Shown: one piece after another, positions 1,575-9,981 of the stretch
How the letters are laid out: each line of letters opens with the position of its first letter
Numbering within the stretch: the stretch's first letter is position 1
Made by a program: the position numbers and the translations under genes
Notes under the pieces: model-generated
What the model saw: the letters and a program-made list of their open reading frames with translations, nothing else
What the model was told of the DNA's origin: nothing
Databases searched by the model: none
Source: Clostridiales bacterium FE2011
Lineage (GTDB): Bacteria > Bacillota > Clostridia > Christensenellales > Aristaeellaceae
Direction: 5' to 3'
Assembly: GCA_017569305.1 (NCBI GenBank)
Contig: CP069418.1
Span: forward strand, 1,426,001-1,490,000
Length of the DNA: 64,000 nt

Positions 1575-1760
1575 ATGTTCGGAACATTCATGATTGTTTT
1601 CTTTGCCGTGCTCGCTGTGCTGGCACTCATCGGCCTCTGGATGAAGAAGAAAAACCCCGCATCGAATGATCTCAGGGACCCGGACAAGGTGCTTGAAAAT
1701 GCGGCCGATCTGGGCGACAGATTCAACCGCGCACGGTACCAGGAACAAGATGGACAGTAA
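1575..1760 (+). CDS. Small single-pass membrane protein
   Basis: 61 residues from ATG 1575. AGGAGG at 1558-1563 lies 11 bases upstream; a GTG at 1563 in the same frame overlaps the ribosome binding site and is unlikely. One hydrophobic helix (about residues 3-22) is followed by a KKK stop-transfer and a charged cytoplasmic tail rich in Asp, Arg and Glu. It is not recognised as a named family. Its stop codon overlaps the start of the next gene by 11 bases, so the two are probably translationally coupled, and it may be an accessory subunit or anchor for the secreted protein that follows. Confidence 0.6.
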   Translation: MFGTFMIVFFAVLAVLALIGLWMKKKNPASNDLRDPDKVLENAADLGDRFNRARYQEQDGQ

Positions 1761-3591
1761 ACGTTGTTATTTCCCCGTTCTGTTATTTCTGCTGCTGCTT
1801 TTGCTGGTTCTTCCGCTTTTCGCCAGTGCAGACGGAACGACCGTTTCTTATGAAGGAACTGATTACCCCCAGGACGCCGAGTATATTGACCTCGGCAATT
1901 TTGTCGTGAAAGATTTTGACGCCTTTACCGCTTTTCTTGACCAGATGCCTGCCCTTAAACAGGTAGATATGTGGAAGAACCGGATGACCGCCGCACAGTG
2001 CGATATGCTGGCTGCCCGTTATCCCGGCATGCGCTGGGGCTGGACCATGGTCATCCGCAACCGGGACCATGAGCACCTGGTGCGTACAGACTATACCTCC
2101 TGGTCAACGCTGCATAACAATACCAGCGCCAAGCACAACAGCGAGGATTTTTCCGTGCTGAAATACTGCTGGAACCTCATGGCGCTGGATGTCGGCCACA
2201 ATAACGTCACCAACCTGGATTTCCTGTATGACCTGCCTAACCTCCGGATCCTGATCGTCGCCTGCAACGCGGTTGAGGATATCACCCCTATTGCTTCCCT
2301 GAAGCATCTGGAATACCTGGAGGTATTTAAAAACAGGATCCTGGATATCTCCCCGCTGGAAGGGCTGGATCACCTGATGGACCTGAACCTGTGCTTCAAC
2401 CGGATTGCGGATCTCAGTCCCGTGCTGAAGCTGCCCAACCTGAAGCGGCTCTGGATGTATTCCAGTCGGAAAGCCAACGCCGTTCCCGTCGGTGACGATG
2501 TGGACGCGATCAAGGCAGCCTTCCCGAACGCCATCATCAATACCACCCATTATTCCACCCTCGGCGGCTGGCGTATGATCACACAGCGCGAAAGAGATCC
2601 CCATTATGAAGTGATCCTGAAAAACTTTGGTGAGAACCATCTCCATCCGCGGAACGAGTACGTCCCCTTCGAAGACAGCTGGCCCTCTGACGATGTTGTC
2701 ACGCAGGAGTCGGGTGAACCGCTGGAGCTGCTGGTTCCGCAGGACTTCTCGGACAAGGGCTACCTGCTTCCCGTTGATTATTCCACCGGCAGTGCTCCGA
2801 AGGCCTCCGGATACACCGGCAATAATACCTATTCCGATTCCACCATTACCGTCACCATCGGCGGCGGCGTCTATGAGGAATGTGAATACTGGACGGCTGA
2901 TATCCTCCTGAAGGACGCTTCCCAGCTCCGCACCCTTGCGGCCAGCCTGGACGGTTCTTTTGAAACGACAGGCCAGATGGACGCCGTCCGGCTGGCGGAA
3001 CGTGCCAATGCCGTACTCGCCATCAACGGCGACTACTTCAGCAGTAGTGAAAAGCGCGGCCTGGGATACATCGTCCGCCAGGGCACCCTGTATGAAAACA
3101 ACCTGGAACCTGTCGGCAAGTGGAACGCACTGCTCATGGACGTACTCCTGGTTGATGAAGACGGCGATTTCACCGGCATCCACCAGCCCCAGGAGGGATC
3201 CGTCCCTGCGCGTATCAACGGCAAGCGCGTGCTGAATTCCTTCTCCTTCGGTCCGATCCTGGTGGAAAACGGCCGTCCCGTGGATGACTTCCGCGGCACA
3301 GACCGCTGGTTCAATATGGCCTGGATGGATTCCCGCCAGCGGATCTGCATCTGCCAGGTGGATCACCTGCACTACAAGATCGTATGCTGTGCCGGACCTT
3401 CCCAGAAGAACGGCGGCATGACCATCCGCCAGTTCGCCGATTTTGTCGCGACGCTGGATGTAAAGATCGCCTACAACCTGGACGGCGGCGATTCCACCCT
3501 GCTCTTCTTCGGCGGAAACAAAGTCAACGAGCTGGGTTATCAGTCCCAGCGGAAACTGACCGATATCATCTATTTTGCCTCGGCTGAATAA
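1750..3591 (+). CDS. Secreted leucine-rich repeat protein with C-terminal phosphodiester glycosidase (NAGPA-like) domain
   Basis: 613 residues from ATG 1750 (signal peptide MDSKRCYFPVLLFLL..., cleavage near FASA-DG). Residues about 30-130 are a spacer; residues 140-260 hold four to five leucine-rich repeats of the internalin-like type (LMALDVGHNNVTNLDFL, LEYLEVFKNRILDISPL, LMDLNLCFNRIADLSPV). The last 230 residues are a NAGPA domain (PF09992-like), with the hallmark blocks AINGDYF, NSFSFGPILVENG and AYNLDGGDSTLLFF. NAGPA enzymes split N-acetylglucosamine-1-phosphodiester bonds; bacterial relatives act on extracellular glycans such as polysaccharides or teichoic acids. The substrate here is unknown. 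It is followed 12 bases later by an Lgt-like membrane protein, an arrangement repeated at 23560-25707. Confidence 0.85.
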   Translation: MDSKRCYFPVLLFLLLLLLVLPLFASADGTTVSYEGTDYPQDAEYIDLGNFVVKDFDAFTAFLDQMPALKQVDMWKNRMTAAQCDMLAARYPGMRWGWTMVIRNRDHEHLVRTDYTSWSTLHNNTSAKHNSEDFSVLKYCWNLMALDVGHNNVTNLDFLYDLPNLRILIVACNAVEDITPIASLKHLEYLEVFKNRILDISPLEGLDHLMDLNLCFNRIADLSPVLKLPNLKRLWMYSSRKANAVPVGDDVDAIKAAFPNAIINTTHYSTLGGWRMITQRERDPHYEVILKNFGENHLHPRNEYVPFEDSWPSDDVVTQESGEPLELLVPQDFSDKGYLLPVDYSTGSAPKASGYTGNNTYSDSTITVTIGGGVYEECEYWTADILLKDASQLRTLAASLDGSFETTGQMDAVRLAERANAVLAINGDYFSSSEKRGLGYIVRQGTLYENNLEPVGKWNALLMDVLLVDEDGDFTGIHQPQEGSVPARINGKRVLNSFSFGPILVENGRPVDDFRGTDRWFNMAWMDSRQRICICQVDHLHYKIVCCAGPSQKNGGMTIRQFADFVATLDVKIAYNLDGGDSTLLFFGGNKVNELGYQSQRKLTDIIYFASAE

Positions 3592-3603
3592 TCCTGTGAG
3601 CTG

Positions 3604-4623
3604 GTGAACCATATGCTTTCTGCAACAACGTTGTATTGTGCGATCCTGGCACTGAGTATCCTGGTGTCAGGTTCCCTTTTCCTGCTGAGCGTCCGGAAGC
3701 ACGGGCTTTCCGTGCCCCTGGCAGCGGGCATTTTTATTGCCGGCCTTGTGCTGGCTTACTTTTTTGCCAAGGGCGTCTATGTAGCGCTGAACTGGTCCGC
3801 ACTGAAGGCCAACGGTGCCGGCAAATGGTTTCTGCTGGTGCCGGAACAGTTTTCCTTCGTCGGCGGCGCAATCGGTTTCTGCCTGGCGCCGGTGCTGTTC
3901 CGCGCAAAAAAGCGCAGGGAAATCCCCGCGTATCTGGACCAGCTGGCCTTTCCCGCCGGATTGTTGGCAGCCCTGATGCGGTTTGATGAAATTTTCCTGG
4001 GAGAACTGGGACTGGCAGATCTCCGCGACATCGGCCTGCAGGACATGACGGACGGGGATCTGTTTGCGCGGTTCCCCTTCGCGGTGAAGGACAGCTGGGG
4101 CGTATGGTACCTGGCCGTGTGCACCATCGCGGCGCTTATGATCCTCGTGATCATCGGCTGCATGGCGCTGCGGGCACGGAAGAGCCGCCCCCTGCCGGAG
4201 GGGCTGCGCTTTGAGCGCTTCGTCTTCCTGGTATGCGCCGTGCGGCTCTTCCTGGAGCTGACCCGGCTGGACTGCCTGATTTTCTTCTTTGTGCATGTGG
4301 ACCAGGTGCTGGCCGCGGTGGTGATGCTCATCCTTTTCATCCGCGCCGGATACAGGGTGAAACAGCAGAGCGGGCATTTCCCGGGATGGGCCCTGGTGAT
4401 TTACCTGATAAGCTATGTGCTGAACGGGATCATGCAGTACGCGATGGACAAGCCCTGGCATTTTCAATCCCTGCTGCCGGAGGGCGTCTACAACTGGCTT
4501 GCCTATAACCTGAGTTCCTTCGGCACCTGCGTGCTGCTGGCGACCACGATTGTAACGGTGATCCTGTACCTGTGCCTGTGCCGGAAGGAAACAAAAACCG
4601 CAGGAGAGGCTCCTGCGGCTTAA
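3604..4623 (+). CDS. Divergent Lgt-like membrane protein (prolipoprotein diacylglyceryl transferase fold)
   Basis: About 339 residues with seven or so membrane segments. The start is GTG 3604 or ATG 3613; neither has a strong ribosome binding site, as expected for coupling to the gene 12 bases upstream. Lgt landmarks are visible in order: a GGAIG segment in place of the HGG motif, LDQLAFPAGLL (Lgt: D-x-x-AP), MRFDEIFLGELG (Lgt: GRxGNFxNGELxG) and RLFLELTRLD (Lgt: RFxxExxRxD). The first Arg, the GE Glu, and the late Arg and Glu are kept, but the motif Asn is Glu and the loop His is Val. Canonical lipoprotein modification is therefore doubtful, and an altered lipid- or glycan-transfer role is inferred. 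Residues near the C-terminus also encode the terminator of the opposite gene. Confidence 0.7.
   Translation: MNHMLSATTLYCAILALSILVSGSLFLLSVRKHGLSVPLAAGIFIAGLVLAYFFAKGVYVALNWSALKANGAGKWFLLVPEQFSFVGGAIGFCLAPVLFRAKKRREIPAYLDQLAFPAGLLAALMRFDEIFLGELGLADLRDIGLQDMTDGDLFARFPFAVKDSWGVWYLAVCTIAALMILVIIGCMALRARKSRPLPEGLRFERFVFLVCAVRLFLELTRLDCLIFFFVHVDQVLAAVVMLILFIRAGYRVKQQSGHFPGWALVIYLISYVLNGIMQYAMDKPWHFQSLLPEGVYNWLAYNLSSFGTCVLLATTIVTVILYLCLCRKETKTAGEAPAA
4592..4618 (-). terminator. Minus-strand terminator inside the end of the convergent gene
   Basis: An 8-bp stem (4598-4605 with 4611-4618) is followed on the minus strand by CGGTTTTTGT. It lies within the last codons of the plus-strand Lgt-like gene, past the stop of the minus-strand GTPase gene at 4630. 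Confidence 0.7.
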
Positions 4624-4629
4624 CCGGCC

Positions 4630-7266
4630 CTACGCGTCATTATTCTCCCTGGATTTCTTCCAGGCTTCCTTATACAGCCGCTCCAGTGAACGTTCCGTTC
4701 CGGGGCGGTAGTTTTTTTGCAGGTATTCGGCAATGCTTCCCTGCACGCCGATCACCTCCCGCCGGAATTCCCGGGCGGAAGTGCGCAGCGCTTCATTGCC
4801 CAGCGCAATCAGCTGCTCCGGCCGGTCGGAGGTCACCACCCGCACCCTCGCCCGGTTCCGGGCCAGCAGGGTGGTTTTTTCAATATAGGCGTCCGCGGTC
4901 TGTGCCTCCCGGGTATAGACCACGTAGATATTCTTGTATTTTTCCGCGGATCCGGGATTCCCTTTCACCTTGTAGGCGTCAAAAACCAGGATAACCTCCC
5001 GTCCCGTCATGCCCGCGTAGTCGCACATCAGCTCCGTCAGCTGCATCCGGGCCGCGTCGAAGTTTTCCTGCACCCGGTCCTTCCACTCATCCCAGGCAAA
5101 CAGCACATTATAGCCGTCCACCAGCAGGATCTCGCCCTCCGGAGCCGGCGTCCGTTTCTCCTCCGGCAGTTTTTCCGCCGGGGTTTCCTTCGGCACAGGG
5201 TTCATCAGCCGCTGGGCCTTTACCGGTCCGTAGGTTTTTTCAAAGATGTGCCGCAGGGTCTCCTCTTCCTCCGCGGTCCCCCGATACGGTGCGGCGCCGC
5301 CCGTCCGGACAGCCGGAGCGGCTTCCGCTTTTTTCCTTTCCTCTTTTAAAGGCAGGTGCATATACTGCTCCACCTGGTCCCAGGGAACCGAAACCCCGGC
5401 GCCGTGGGAGCAAAATACGGAATCCGCCGGATTCATCACGTCCCGGAGCGGATCATAGGCTTTTTCCGCAATCACCTTTTCCGCCTCCGCGCAGGGCAGG
5501 TATGCGGAAAAGGAAGCAGTCATCCGTCCCGCCCCGCCGGTCCGCGCGCTGAGATCCCTTGCATAGTTCCGACAGGCGGAAGCAGGCACCACAGCCCGAA
5601 TCTTCCGGAGTCCTTCCTCCGCGTCCTCCGGTCCTTCCGGCCTGCCGCCCATCAGGGTCAGGTCGTTCATCACCCGGCCCAGGGCTTCCTGGGGTACGGT
5701 AATTTCCAGTGACAGATAGGGCTCCAGCAGTACACATCCGGCCTTCATCAGACCCTGGCGGACCGCCCGGTAGGTAGCCTGCCGGAAATCACCGCCCTCC
5801 GTATGCTTCAAGTGAGCCTTTCCGGCGATCAGGGTAATTTTCATATCCGTGATCGGGGCGCCGGTCAGGATACCCCGGTGAATCTTTTCCTGCAGGTGGG
5901 TCAGGATCAGCCGCTGCCAGTTCAGCGCCAGGTCGTCCGTGGACACGTCCGTGTCAAACACCAGGCCGCTGCCGGCGGGCAGGGGCTCCATCCACAGGTG
6001 CACCTCCGCGTAGTGGCGCAGCGGCTCATAGTGGCCCACGCCTTCAGCCGGAGCCATAATGGTTTCCCGGTACAGCACGCTGGTCTCGCCGAAGGAGATT
6101 TCAATCCCGAAGCGGTCCTTCATCTGCCGGCGGAGCACCTCCAGGTACACGTCTCCCATGGAGTGCACCCGGATCTCCCGCCGGGCTTCCACAAACTCTG
6201 TCTGCAGCAGCGGTTCCTCTTCCGTCAGCGTCTTCAGGCAGTCCAGCACCTTGTGCAGGTCTTCCCCGGGGCCGGGAATCACCCGGCAGGCATAGCAGGG
6301 GCGCAGGGTCTGCTCCCCTTTGATATATTCAGCGCCCAGGCCATCCCCGGGCATAGCTTTGCTCAGTCCTGTCACGCAGCACAGTTCTCCGGCCGCCGCC
6401 CGCTGCGCCGCGCTATATCTTGCCCCGGAATACTGCCGGATTTCGGCAATCTTTTCTGTCCAGCTGTTTTCTCCGGTGCCGCCGGTCACCTGGTCCCGGG
6501 TTTTCAGTTCCCCGCCCGTCACTTTCAGGAAGGTCAGCCGGTTTCCCTGGGGATCCCGGGCAATCTTGTACACCCGCGCGCCGAATTCCTTCGGATACTC
6601 TTTTTCCTCCGCGAACCCGGCCAGGAAATCCAGCAGCGGTTCCACACCCTCGTTCTTCAGGGCCGCCCCGAAAAAGCAGGGGAACAGCTTCCGTTCCCGG
6701 ATCAGGGCGCGGATCCGTTTTTCAGGCACAGCGCCGTCCCGCAGGTACAGATCCAGGCAGGTCTCATCGCACAGGGCAGCCGCCTCTGAAGGATCTCCGG
6801 TAAAATCGGCGATCCGGTCTGACAGCGCGCCCAGCGCCGTGATTATTTCCTTCCGGTTTCCGTCATACCGGTCCATTTTGTTCACAAACAGGATCACCGG
6901 CACCCCGCTGCGCTCCAGCAGTTTCCACAGGGTCCGGGTATGGGACTGGACGCCTTCCGTGGCGCTGATTACCAGCACAGCGGCGTCCATCACGCTGATA
7001 GCCCGCTCCGTTTCCCCCGCAAAGTCGGTATGCCCGGGCGTGTCCACCAGTGTCAGATCCGTTTTCCCCCAGGTCAGCCTGGCTTCCTTGGAGAAGATCG
7101 TGATGCCCCGTTCCTTCTCCATCTGTTCCGTATCCAGGAAAGCGTCCCCGTGGTCCACCCGGCCCTGGCGGCGCACTGCGCCGCTGAGAAACAGCATAGC
7201 TTCGGACAGGGTGGTTTTGCCCGCGTCCACATGGGCCGCCAGACCCACCGTCAGCTTTCCCGCCAT
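4630..7266 (-). CDS. Tet(M)/EF-G-like ribosomal GTPase fused to a Rae1/YacP-like NYN endoribonuclease domain
   Basis: 878 residues from ATG 7266 (AGGAGGG 12 bases upstream). Residues 1 to about 640 follow the ribosomal-protection GTPase plan: G1 AHVDAGKT (11-18), G2 RGITI (53-57), G3 DTPGH (75-79), G4 NKMD (129-132), then EF-G domains II to V. Residues 640-711 are a charged linker. Residues 712-850 are an NYN domain closely like Bacillus Rae1 (YacP): LLVDGYN (Asp717), VFDAYKVKG (Asp763), TADAYIEK (Asp792), TSDRPEQ (Asp814), all four acidic residues kept, and the RTSAREF block. Rae1 cuts mRNA in the ribosomal A site; Tet(M) enters the same site. A fused ribosome-clearing or mRNA-cutting factor is inferred. 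Drug resistance should not be assumed. It is monocistronic. Confidence 0.9.
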   Translation of the reverse strand: MAGKLTVGLAAHVDAGKTTLSEAMLFLSGAVRRQGRVDHGDAFLDTEQMEKERGITIFSKEARLTWGKTDLTLVDTPGHTDFAGETERAISVMDAAVLVISATEGVQSHTRTLWKLLERSGVPVILFVNKMDRYDGNRKEIITALGALSDRIADFTGDPSEAAALCDETCLDLYLRDGAVPEKRIRALIRERKLFPCFFGAALKNEGVEPLLDFLAGFAEEKEYPKEFGARVYKIARDPQGNRLTFLKVTGGELKTRDQVTGGTGENSWTEKIAEIRQYSGARYSAAQRAAAGELCCVTGLSKAMPGDGLGAEYIKGEQTLRPCYACRVIPGPGEDLHKVLDCLKTLTEEEPLLQTEFVEARREIRVHSMGDVYLEVLRRQMKDRFGIEISFGETSVLYRETIMAPAEGVGHYEPLRHYAEVHLWMEPLPAGSGLVFDTDVSTDDLALNWQRLILTHLQEKIHRGILTGAPITDMKITLIAGKAHLKHTEGGDFRQATYRAVRQGLMKAGCVLLEPYLSLEITVPQEALGRVMNDLTLMGGRPEGPEDAEEGLRKIRAVVPASACRNYARDLSARTGGAGRMTASFSAYLPCAEAEKVIAEKAYDPLRDVMNPADSVFCSHGAGVSVPWDQVEQYMHLPLKEERKKAEAAPAVRTGGAAPYRGTAEEEETLRHIFEKTYGPVKAQRLMNPVPKETPAEKLPEEKRTPAPEGEILLVDGYNVLFAWDEWKDRVQENFDAARMQLTELMCDYAGMTGREVILVFDAYKVKGNPGSAEKYKNIYVVYTREAQTADAYIEKTTLLARNRARVRVVTSDRPEQLIALGNEALRTSAREFRREVIGVQGSIAEYLQKNYRPGTERSLERLYKEAWKKSRENNDA

Positions 7267-7475
7267 GGCTGTTTCCCTCCTTTTTATAGTCTTCCGGATG
7301 GACTTTGGATTCAGGTTTTGATGGCATGAAGTATATCAGTATTCCGGGGCTTTGTCCATTTGAACTCCCGCTGTTTTCACGCTTGACGAAACCCTTCCGT
7401 TCACTTATGATGGAGCCAGAAAAGAAACGGCGTTTCGCCGCTTCCAACTGAGATAAAAAGAAAGGATGAAAATCG

Positions 7476-7628
7476 ATGAAGTACGAATGTCCCTGCGGCT
7501 ATATCTATGATCCTGAAGTTGGCGATCCCGAAGGCGGTATCGCTCCCGGCACTGCCTGGGAAGACGTCCCGGAGGATTGGGTCTGCCCCGTCTGCGGTCT
7601 CGGAAAGGATGCCTTCACTCCCGTCTGA
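7476..7628 (+). CDS. Rubredoxin (short gene)
   Basis: 50 residues from ATG 7476, with AAAGGA 9 bases upstream. It matches rubredoxin along its whole length: [18 protein letters not shown], the [11 protein letters not shown] block, and the second iron knuckle CPVCG. The first knuckle is ECPCG, so the two cysteines are separated by one residue rather than the usual two. Rubredoxin is a one-electron carrier with a single iron bound by four Cys; in anaerobes it feeds rubrerythrins and oxygen reductases. thrH begins 15 bases after the stop, so the two are probably co-transcribed. Confidence 0.92.
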
Positions 7629-7643
7629 GGCTGATTATTGTCT

Positions 7644-8243
7644 ATGAATATTGTATGTCTTGACCTTGAAGGGGTGCTGGTGCCTGAGATCTGGATTGCC
7701 TTCTCCCAGGCCAGCGGCATCCCGGAACTGAAACGCACCACCCGGGACGAGCCGGATTATGACAAGCTGATGAAGTGGCGGCTGGGCATCCTGCGGGAGC
7801 ACGGCCTGGGCCTGAAGGATATTCAGGACACCATTGCCACCATCGATCCCATGCCCGGCGCGAAAGAATTCCTGGATACCCTCCGGAGTGAAACCCAGGC
7901 GATCATTCTGTCCGACACCTTTACCCAGTTTGCTTCTCCCCTGATGAAGAAGCTGGGCTGGCCCACCATCTTCTGCAATGAGCTGGAGGTCGGTGAGGAC
8001 GGCATGATCACCGGTTACCGCATCCGGGTGGAAAAAAGCAAGCTGACCACCGTCAAGGCCCTGCAGAGCATCGGCTTTGAAACCATCGCCGCCGGGGACA
8101 GCTACAATGACCTGGGCATGATCCAGGCCAGCAAGGCCGGCATCCTGTTCCGCTCTACCGAGCAGATCAAGAAGGATTATCCTGATCTGCCCGCCTGCGA
8201 AACCTATGATGAGCTGCTGGCGCTGATCCGTGCCGCACTGTAA
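7644..8243 (+). CDS. thrH: Phosphoserine phosphatase / homoserine phosphotransferase ThrH
   Basis: 199 residues from ATG 7644 (a TTG at 7638 is in frame but unlikely). It is a HAD-superfamily protein nearly collinear with Pseudomonas ThrH: CLDLEGVLVPEIWIAF (nucleophile Asp7), TTRDEPDYDKLM, ILSDTF (HAD motif II), and AAGDSYNDLGM (motif IV). ThrH dephosphorylates phosphoserine and can move the phosphate to homoserine, linking serine and threonine synthesis. Length is usual for the family. It shares a transcript with rubredoxin and ends in a strong bidirectional terminator. Confidence 0.93.
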   Translation: MNIVCLDLEGVLVPEIWIAFSQASGIPELKRTTRDEPDYDKLMKWRLGILREHGLGLKDIQDTIATIDPMPGAKEFLDTLRSETQAIILSDTFTQFASPLMKKLGWPTIFCNELEVGEDGMITGYRIRVEKSKLTTVKALQSIGFETIAAGDSYNDLGMIQASKAGILFRSTEQIKKDYPDLPACETYDELLALIRAAL

Positions 8244-8259
8244 AATCATCCCGAAAGTA

Positions 8260-8288
8260 AAGGGAGAGTCGCAATGACTCTCCCTTTT
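8260..8288. terminator. Bidirectional terminator between thrH and the convergent glycosidase
   Basis: An 11-bp stem AAGGGAGAGTC (8260-8270) pairs with 8276-8286 over a 5-base loop, with T-rich and A-rich flanks, so it can serve both strands. Confidence 0.85.
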
Positions 8289-8290
8289 GT

Positions 8291-9739
8291 TTATGTCTTT
8301 TCAGCGTCCTCTATGGGTTCCGTCCGCAGGAACCGTCCGTTTTCATCCGTGATGACGCGCCTGCCGCATTTCCAGCTGCCCAGTGCTTTCCCGTCCACAC
8401 GGATTTCCGCCCTCTGCCCGTCGGACCGGATGGCGTAATGACGGTCACAGAAGGCAGCCTCATACGCACAGGGCGCGCCGCTCCCCAGGCTGAACCACAC
8501 CTGTCCCAGGTGCGGATGGATGCCGTAATGGTGTGCAATATATTCAAGGCAGGCCAGCATGGTGGGGCCGTATGCGTCCTGCACCGCTTCCCCGCTGTTT
8601 TCCTCCGCCGGCTGATGATCCGACATGCGTACCAGGGAGGCTTTGCCGGTGAAGGGATCATACTGCTGGGTAAACCGGCAGCCGTTCGCGTAAACCGCGT
8701 CAATCAGTTTCCGGCCCAGCCCCGTCACCAGCCGGTTATACCCGTAGCGTTCCAGGGCAAGGATCGCCCGCTGGTAGGTGAGGCCCTCCGGCTGGCCGCT
8801 CCAGTTGTTCTCCGGCGCGTTGCGGAAAGCCGGATCATTGACCGCCACGCTGGGAAGCGGGAAAGGCGTCCGGAATTCCGCGGGATTCAGCAGGTGCTCC
8901 TTTACAAAGCGGGCCGCCATTCCCCGGGAAATGCTGCCCCAGTACATGCACCGCAGCGTATTGTGGCACAGGATGTCCACCGTTTTCCCCGTCCGGTCCC
9001 GGTCATACAGGGCGCCGCGCTTCCTGTCCCACAGCCGGCGGCGGAGCGCATCCGCCACCATACGGGCTTTCCGCTCCCAGGCGTCAGCGGACCGATCCCC
9101 CTGCAGGCGGCAGATTTCAGCCACCGTCCGGCGGGCCGCAAAGCTCCAGCTTGTCACGTCCATGCTGGCCATGGGAACCACCTGATATCCTTCCGGCGGT
9201 TCATCCCCTTCCCACCAGCAGGGCGCGTCCCCGTACCGCAGGGCCAGGTCCTCCCCCGTGTCATAGACGCAGAAGGAGGAAAGCAGTCCGTCGCCGGAAA
9301 CATGGCGCGTATTCCACAGGCACCGGTCAAAGCGGATCAGGCTCTCCTTCAGCTCTGCCAGGTAATCCCTGTCTTTTCCGATTAAGTAATACAGGTTCAG
9401 GGCCGGGAAGGGAAAACAGAACCCCTGGTATTTGTTGAACTGGGGTTCCACTTTGCCGCCGGTGCACTGGATGGAGCCCGGCAGGCGCCCATCTGCCCGC
9501 TGGTGGCGCATGAACAGGGTGATGTTGTTCCGGGCCGCCTCCAGGCTGCGCAGGGCATACATCTCGCCGCCCATGGGCTGGGTTTCCAGCCAGATTTTTT
9601 CATATCCGCCGCCTTCCACCAGCACCGTATCGCCGCCGAAATCCTTCAGGTTAAAGCGGCATTTCTCTTCCGCCGCGTCATAAACACGCTGAAGCTTTTC
9701 ATCCTCCGTGCGGAAAAAAACGCTTGTTTCAGGCAGCAT
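8291..9739 (-). CDS. (alpha/alpha)6-barrel glycoside hydrolase, GH63/MGH1-like
   Basis: 482 residues from ATG 9739, with AAGGGAAGG just upstream. Repeated Trp-, Arg- and Glu-rich helices fit an (alpha/alpha)6 toroid: YEKIWLETQPMGGEMYA near residue 50, HQRADGRLPGSI, FNKYQGFCFPFPALNLYYLIG, WNTLR-type helices, NNWSGQPEGLTYQRAILAL, and AEENSGEAVQDAYGPTML near the C-terminus. The layout resembles MGH1-like, GH63 and related trehalase-like enzymes; no signal peptide is seen, so it acts on imported oligosaccharides. The exact substrate is not readable. It is transcribed away from the adjoining sugar ABC operon, with the 242-base spacer (9740-9981) between them holding both promoters. Confidence 0.68.
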   Translation of the reverse strand: MLPETSVFFRTEDEKLQRVYDAAEEKCRFNLKDFGGDTVLVEGGGYEKIWLETQPMGGEMYALRSLEAARNNITLFMRHQRADGRLPGSIQCTGGKVEPQFNKYQGFCFPFPALNLYYLIGKDRDYLAELKESLIRFDRCLWNTRHVSGDGLLSSFCVYDTGEDLALRYGDAPCWWEGDEPPEGYQVVPMASMDVTSWSFAARRTVAEICRLQGDRSADAWERKARMVADALRRRLWDRKRGALYDRDRTGKTVDILCHNTLRCMYWGSISRGMAARFVKEHLLNPAEFRTPFPLPSVAVNDPAFRNAPENNWSGQPEGLTYQRAILALERYGYNRLVTGLGRKLIDAVYANGCRFTQQYDPFTGKASLVRMSDHQPAEENSGEAVQDAYGPTMLACLEYIAHHYGIHPHLGQVWFSLGSGAPCAYEAAFCDRHYAIRSDGQRAEIRVDGKALGSWKCGRRVITDENGRFLRTEPIEDAEKT

Positions 9740-9981
9740 TTTTCAGCCTTCCCTTCCGGTTTTTATTCGGAATTTCCACTGGTTGAATTCTATCATTTAT
9801 TGCGATTTTTGGACAGATGCGAAAAAAATGCGCATCCCCCGAAATCCGCAAAAACCTTTATTTTTCAACAATATGCAAAATTTTAGCTTCTTCCCTTTCA
9901 GAAGATTTGCCGTCATAATGAGAGCGAAAATTGAGCAACGAAAAATCATATCGCCCCGAATACCCCGAAGGAGGATTCCTG

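Follow-up and report, generated by a model that had tools for sequence, protein, structure and literature searches.

The stretch of DNA analysed here (the window; 64,000 nucleotides of Clostridiales bacterium FE2011, contig CP069418.1, positions 1,426,001 to 1,490,000) carries on its reverse strand, at 4630-7266, a single uninterrupted and intact reading frame with an ATG start. Its 878-residue product joins an EF-G/Tet-type translational GTPase (residues 6-637), through a 74-residue linker, to a ribonuclease domain of the Rae1/YacP NYN type (residues 714-871). An earlier note on this DNA, made by a model from the letters alone, had placed both enzymes in one polypeptide, and this is borne out by Pfam, by the Protein Data Bank (PDB) and by an AlphaFold model. 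In Pfam, the frame matches GTP_EFTU (6-217, E 1e-50), EFG_III (323-393), EFG_IV (397-509) and EFG_C (512-595), with EF-G_D2 (PF22042, 228-306) at 25.5 bits falling short of its cut-off of 27; NYN_YacP (714-871) scores 148 bits against a cut-off of 24.6 (E 4e-43). By sequence, the closest PDB entries are, over roughly the first 600 residues, EF-G and Tet(M), and, for the NYN part, Bacillus subtilis YacP (5mq8/5mq9, E 9e-28).

The AlphaFold model of the whole protein, built from 59 fusions, has a mean predicted local distance difference test (pLDDT) score of 87.7 and a predicted template-modelling score of 0.71; the linker is mainly of low confidence (pLDDT below 50 at 654-663 and 683-706, as also at 853-859), with a helix predicted at 664-679. 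All 50 rows shown by a Foldseek search of the PDB are EF-G- or EF-2-type chains, as judged by their titles. The N-terminal part can thus be described as a five-domain, EF-G-like GTPase (on Pfam matches, with domain II under its cut-off, and on its EF-G fold), within which domain IV corresponds to the part that, in EF-G and Tet(M), reaches the ribosomal A site. A chance or broken frame, or an assembly artefact, was ruled out, because the frame is intact and relatives of the same architecture are found in dozens. GGAGG (7280-7276) precedes the ATG, a leader of about 60 nucleotides is expected from the promoter-like site, and the gene seems, from such signals, to be transcribed as a single-gene unit; an Rfam search of window positions 3500-9800 returned no match.

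Table 1. Features of the fusion gene and its flanks, in window coordinates
Feature	Position	Strand	Basis
Whole gene: translational GTPase, linker and Rae1/YacP-type NYN ribonuclease, 878 residues	4630..7266	(-)	Open reading frame translation, Pfam, AlphaFold
GTPase (G) domain, residues 6-217; G1 AHVDAGKTT, G3 DTPGH, catalytic-type His79, G4 NKMD	6616..7251	(-)	Pfam PF00009
Domain II, residues 228-306	6349..6585	(-)	PF22042 below cut-off; location agrees with EF-G fold of AlphaFold model
Domain III, residues 323-393	6088..6300	(-)	PF14492
Domain IV, residues 397-509	5740..6078	(-)	PF03764
Domain IV tip loop I, residues 409-423, G.GHxEPLRHYAEVH	5998..6042	(-)	Conservation in 60 fusions
Domain IV second tip loop, residues 482-495, GKAHLKHTEGGDFR	5782..5823	(-)	Conservation in 60 fusions
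Domain V, residues 512-595	5482..5733	(-)	PF00679
GTPase C-terminal extension, residues 596-637, ...DSVFCSHGAG..V.W....YMH	5356..5481	(-)	Alignments
Linker, residues 638-711, partly low-confidence; helix 664-679 at 5230-5277	5134..5355	(-)	AlphaFold, alignment
Rae1/YacP-type NYN ribonuclease domain, residues 714-871	4654..5127	(-)	PF05991, PDB 5mq8
Promoter-like site TGGACA-17-TATACT, TG preceding second hexamer	7330..7358	(-)	Consensus match only
Terminator-like hairpin, 12 pairs, immediately past stop codon	4595..4621	(-)	Consensus match only

Conservation was assessed in an alignment of 60 fusions, the window protein included, the others being 41-63% identical to it. Invariant throughout are G16, K17, T19, T56, D75-H79 (DTPGH), N129, K130 and D132, that is, the G1-G4 residues and the histidine of DTPGH by which the translational GTPase superfamily is recognised, and, in the NYN half, D717, G718, Y719, N720, D763, D792, E796 and D814; a 59-row version of the alignment gives the same invariant positions. 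D717, D763, D792 and D814 align with the four aspartates of B. subtilis YacP (5mq8), which we take to be catalytic. Because both active-site sets are invariant, both halves of the enzyme look active, so far as sequence can tell, and what the earlier note had said of one protein, that its GTPase motifs and four acidic NYN residues are intact, extends to all 60. The linker, too, holds an island of conservation specific to the fusions, its predicted helix carrying conserved positions 670, 674, 678 and 679; of 59 fusions, 58 have Ile at 674, 54 have Thr at 678 and 55 have Glu at 670, where the window protein has Thr.

The GTPase had been called ‘Tet(M)-like’. It is indeed of the EF-G/Tet type, but the term is too loose, because its tip loops depart from the Tet ones and its GTPase part is about equally distant (30% identity) from Tet(M) and from the EF-G of its own genome; identity is 42% to an unfused sister from Ligilactobacillus salivarius and 48-56% to six other fusions compared. 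In tip loop I of domain IV, G409, G411, H412, E414-Y419 and E421 are invariant in the 60 fusions, and the subfamily as a whole reads GH(Y/F/W)EPL(R/K/G)HY(A/S)EV, unlike Tet and EF-G. The second loop (482-495) has H485, H488, T489 and G491-R495 (GGDFR) invariant, with Lys487 in at least 90%. All four Tet proteins compared (Tet(M), Tet(O), Tet(Q) and TetB(P)) have (F/Y)(F/Y)SPxSTPADF at the domain IV tip, where the window protein has GKAHLKHTEGGDFR; the comparison with Tet(M) suggested in the earlier note therefore turns up a difference, with Lys487 aligned to Pro509 of Tet(M), and His485 to the histidine of EF-G GSYH. Unfused sisters, found on L. salivarius megaplasmids and in several families, share these loops (HxKHTxGGDFR in 14 of 15 rows, the L. 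salivarius row being SNVHTVGGDFR) and the C-terminal extension (596-637), which is absent from the Tet and EF-G rows compared; unlike the fusions, they have neither linker nor NYN domain, and are 618-724 residues long.

Tet proteins are likewise EF-G-like multidomain GTPases, and Tet(M/O), like the fusion, are without most of the EF-G insert in the G domain (by alignment); they are set apart from it by their tip loops, by the C-terminal extension and by the curated score. The NCBIfam model tet_protect, although the best NCBIfam match, gives the window protein 395 bits where its cut-off demands 775 (380-458 bits for four unfused sisters, 880 for Tet(M) as control), and the EF-G model TIGR00484 gives it 297 bits against 659 (the genome's separate EF-G, 1147). 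A quick tree of 60 rows places the subfamily and Tet(M/O) each on long, fully supported branches. On these alignments, scores and branches, the GTPase of the fusion is a subfamily of its own, distinct from Tet.

These comparisons also bear on how the fusion has been read before. Atkinson 2015 (BMC Genomics, PMC4342817), a paper earlier than Rae1 (2017), describes ‘Tet proteins’ with a YacP-NYN domain in ten clostridial species and classes them as Tet, possibly acting by a new resistance mechanism; in that paper, the loops at the tip of Tet domain IV are the ones that dislodge the drug. Set beside ours by description (same architecture, Clostridiales), those proteins very probably belong to the same family, which is shown here to be a subfamily that has tip loops of its own, occurs across much of the class and apparently replaces Rae1. 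The architecture is thus already published, PMC4342817 being the only place in print where we found it in a literature search that left most subscription papers outside; new here are the separate subfamily, the probable replacement of Rae1, the loss of its operon slot and the putative single, old fusion.

That the protein is a true tetracycline ribosomal-protection factor with an extra RNase domain, in the sense of Atkinson 2015, strikes us as very improbable. The tet_protect match, a sister position to Tet(M/O) on a small tree with EF-G as outgroup and the RefSeq name of some members (‘TetM/TetW/TetO/TetS family tetracycline resistance’; another is named ‘translation factor GTPase family protein’) would favour it, but must be set against the score itself, the absence of SPxSTPADF, the lysine in place of Pro509 and a window gene that is chromosomal and single-copy. 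With an unfused sister as query, moreover, identity does not exceed 32.5% for the plasmid rows that bear a Tet(M/O/Q/B(P)) annotation, against 37.8-51.4% for the rows above them (best 60 of 1218 records). The predicted_resistance_gene rows of the plasmid records cover tet(M), tet(O), tet(Q) and tetB(P), whereas the four subfamily loci inspected have no such row. No long leader of the tet(M) type was seen upstream of the window gene by consensus matching, which counts against this reading as well. Tetracycline resistance as the main function was accordingly rejected, on tip loops and scores, and the earlier note was right to warn that a simple resistance label would mislead. Two loci (L244:2968-4902 and L243:2971-5772) bear the RefSeq TetM/TetW/TetO/TetS label despite missing the Tet loop, likely a misannotation. 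In surveys of resistomes, a gene with a housekeeping role in gut commensals may be scored as tetracycline resistance, as with the Agathobacter rectalis fusion, which carries that same RefSeq label.

Rae1 of B. subtilis is described as a translation-dependent endoribonuclease of the ribosome A site (PMC6613710, PMC10100781), whose gene adjoins rlmB (yacO) (PMC6613710). The NYN domain of the fusion is homologous to that of Rae1 (5mq8, 5mq9), with all four aspartates aligned, but Rae1 is a single-domain protein, and here the domain forms the C-terminus of a GTPase whose gene lies away from the rlmB-sigH slot. In the window's own genome (one 3.56-Mb contig), the single YacP match is the fusion. 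Among 60 genomes of the family, 51 have a YacP match and none has two; 16 matches lie in frames of fusion size (874-942 residues) and 35 in frames of 170-502, classes assigned by frame length, with sequences inspected for 15 of 16 fused frames (besides the window gene among them) and 10 of the 35 short ones.

The class sample comprised 293 genomes of at least 90% completeness. A YacP domain is present in 192: fused in 104, separate only in 87 and an unclassifiable fragment in one (G320). Fusions stand in frames of at least 800 residues in 96 genomes, and eight more are interrupted where a contig ends or the frame breaks (G231, G215, G121, G244, G294, G103 and G249 were inspected; G130 is assigned by a 789-residue frame only). 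Just one of the 192, G343, has both fusion and separate yacP, second matches in G179, G233 and G267 (about 21 bits, positions 3-49, below cut-off) not being counted as such; Fisher's test on this exclusion gives 1e-19, a value that ignores kinship. A separate yacP is therefore absent from 103 of 104 fusion genomes of the class, and the 20 of 20 fusion genomes searched outside it have one NYN match only. The link to Rae1 drawn in the earlier note is strengthened by this, since the two coexist in only 1 of 192 genomes.

The operon slot tells a similar story. Thirty-six stand-alone loci were fetched from 34 genomes, 33 of them stand-alone-only together with G343. In 32 of the 33, sigH follows yacP in the same orientation (the exception being G268), and in 28 rlmB lies within 50 bases upstream; at the other five loci, rlmB is 435 bases (L196) or 1,854 bases (L200) away, not seen (L189, L197) or beyond judgement at a contig end (L199). 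Among 19 fusion-only genomes, 14 have sigH after rlmB in the same orientation; the aligned parts lie 9-634 bases apart, and that gap, searched for NYN alone, gave no NYN match. The rlmB and sigH genes of the window's own genome overlap and yacP is missing between them, while in G343 yacP still occupies the slot. All in all, we are fairly confident that the fusion has replaced stand-alone Rae1: in many Clostridia it probably stands in place of the small separate protein. The habit of yacP of following rlmB, an rRNA methyltransferase gene, and the sometimes nearby mrnC could also suit an alternative that we regard as improbable, in which the NYN half would process or degrade rRNA or tRNA in ribosome maturation or turnover, the GTPase docking it on assembling or damaged subunits; an early prediction of this kind for YacP is cited in PMC4342817.

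How the fusion arose can be approached from both halves. In a quick tree, 41 fused GTPases form one clade (95 by the Shimodaira-Hasegawa-like approximate likelihood-ratio test) beside 15 unfused ones. A quick NYN tree of few columns, including all 37 stand-alone loci (three being second copies of a genome), unites the fused NYNs with two free ones, from G284 and G268, at a support of 99; a single clade of all fused NYNs is not rejected (approximately unbiased test, p 0.66). Both trees fit one old fusion event. The separate YacPs fetched from the window's own family are of a distant type in the NYN trees. G284 and G268 each also carry an unfused GTPase of the subfamily, which is suggestive of a partnership between the fusion-type NYN and the GTPase before they were joined, the two cases possibly sharing ancestry and G268 perhaps reflecting later fission. 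At the locus concerned in G268 (L197), the free fusion-type YacP lies apart from rlmB and sigH, either a pre-fusion state or the result of fission.

An unfused GTPase occurs in 13 of 59 examined yacP-alone-only genomes (87 in total) and in 0 of 20 without yacP (Fisher 0.03, a contrast confounded by kinship, 15 of the 20 coming from one order). The notion that the unfused GTPase is always accompanied by yacP was rejected: yacP is present in 4 of 7 carriers outside the class, and of 16 genomes that lack the GTPase (11 from outside the class, five from inside) 6 have it. Because 3 of 7 unfused carriers outside the class have no yacP, the GTPase can exist without Rae1, and the partnership is not obligatory. 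One genome (G165; L090 and L094) holds two unfused paralogues of the subfamily.

The distribution, which the earlier note had asked after, is wide: besides the 104 of 293 class genomes, a domain IV-V profile finds the GTPase in 35 of 398 genomes of the phylum at E <= 1e-50, in 28 as fusion-sized frames (857-937 residues) and in 7 unfused (651-674), with a weak match of 192 bits in G673. A collection of genome contigs holds at least 597 stretches encoding a relative, although two search patterns may hit one gene; of the best 80, a set skewed towards the query, 78 have the NYN motif and the other two end at contig ends. Named hosts include Anaerostipes, Butyrivibrio, Ruminococcus, Faecalibacterium, Lawsonibacter, Monoglobus and Agathobacter, and the nearest record is a Clostridia metagenome-assembled genome from goat omasum (100% identity over the query part). 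A mobile gene was rejected, the window copy being chromosomal and no recurrent mobile-element gene adjoining the fusions; on plasmids, the subfamily occurs as unfused members on L. salivarius megaplasmids, and as fused members on records of 517,814 and 251,725 bases (Monoglobus and A. rectalis).

Drawing on these findings, we propose, at what we would call even odds, that the fusion serves the ribosome as a housekeeping factor, encoded on the chromosome, and does the job of Rae1 with a built-in GTPase, its NYN domain cutting mRNA at the A site. For cutting at the A site to be gated by GTP we would allow an even chance at best, and perhaps rather less; here ribosome binding, mRNA as substrate and the coupling of hydrolysis to cutting are all things that we infer. 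More tentatively, the fusion might be a one-protein, GTP-driven ‘no-go’ factor, in which the GTPase inspects or clears the A site and GTP hydrolysis passes the site to the tethered Rae1 nuclease. The GTPase half would dock in the factor-binding site with domain IV pointing to the A site, and docking in the GTP-bound form would select or clear the A site of a paused ribosome; hydrolysis and withdrawal of domain IV would then admit the NYN half, which, on its 74-residue linker, would cut the mRNA within the A site or close to it. Domain IV and NYN would act in turn, because both could hardly occupy the A site together. The ribosome left on a truncated message might then be handled by transfer-messenger RNA (tmRNA) or an RqcH-type protein, the window's own genome encoding both tmRNA and an NFACT (RqcH-type) protein. 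This ‘hand-over’ is deduced from the known arrangement of domains in EF-G and Tet(M), and from the site proposed for Rae1.

Several observations weigh against this proposal. Domain IV and NYN would compete for one site, so that coupling requires a hand-over which is itself only a proposal, and ribosome binding, GTPase activity and RNase activity are all predicted from the sequence of the fusion. Of the two findings that the earlier note had named as damaging to its idea, loss of the NYN residues is not seen, but separation of the parts in relatives is, GTPase and NYN also occurring apart and 3 of the 7 unfused-GTPase genomes outside the class having no yacP. The counts of mutual exclusion share ancestry and are hence not independent; one genome (G343) retains both forms; in 5 of 19 fusion-only genomes no sigH was seen within 1.5 kb beside rlmB; and no conserved gene neighbourhood was found around 120 fused loci (at least three contigs being counted twice under two locus numbers). 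B. subtilis Rae1 is active and is not known to have such a GTPase beside it, that genome not having been searched for one.

The main rival of GTP-coupled cutting is a passive fusion, in which a GTPase (perhaps EF-G2- or LepA-like) and Rae1 were joined for co-expression or common targeting to the ribosome, GTP hydrolysis being irrelevant to cutting. We think this somewhat unlikely: a long linker, mostly of low confidence, the existence of unfused GTPases (3 of 7 without yacP) and a B. subtilis Rae1 not known to need a GTPase partner would all accord with it, but a single fusion kept over dozens of families, with a linker island of its own, suggests more than tethering.

If GTP-coupled cutting is the right reading, much of the Clostridia (104 of 293 class genomes) would control mRNA on stalled ribosomes by a one-chain GTPase-nuclease, following in bacteria the same logic as eukaryotic no-go decay, where Hbs1/Dom34 and Cue2 provide a GTPase and an A-site endonuclease on stalled ribosomes. 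Those are separate proteins of other families, and the likeness is one of analogy only. How Rae1 enters the A site would also become testable, because the nuclease is naturally joined to a likely delivery factor.

A conserved operon partner was sought and rejected, the commonest neighbour, a YlmH-type S4 protein, standing at only 6 of 120 fused loci and being for that reason a lead, not evidence. These six (L027:5243-6046, L029:9801-10670, L031:9606-10331, L032:9704-10564, L038:8392-9738 and L152:4015-4761; PF17774 in 6 of 6) lie 3-87 bp from the fusion in divergent, same-strand and convergent orders; in B. subtilis, YlmH is described as potentially a factor of ribosome quality control (PMC11317155). 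On the L. salivarius megaplasmids (L041:5521-7911 and L244:2511-4902), the unfused GTPase stands divergently beside a plasmid-borne rpsN (ribosomal protein S14). In a phage collection, with the NYN part as sole query, NYN_YacP-like matches were seen in 12 unannotated records (H41-H52), which are probably host or prophage DNA.

Divergent from the fusion gene in the window, at 7476-7628 (+), is a 50-residue rubredoxin-like open reading frame (judged by eye, with two Cys pairs), with a ThrH-like phosphatase gene (7638-8243) downstream. Convergent with it is a gene for a weakly Lgt-like membrane protein (3604-4623 (+), 26 bits), and at 1666-3591 (+) leucine-rich repeats and an NAGPA-type phosphodiester glycosidase domain are combined in one protein.

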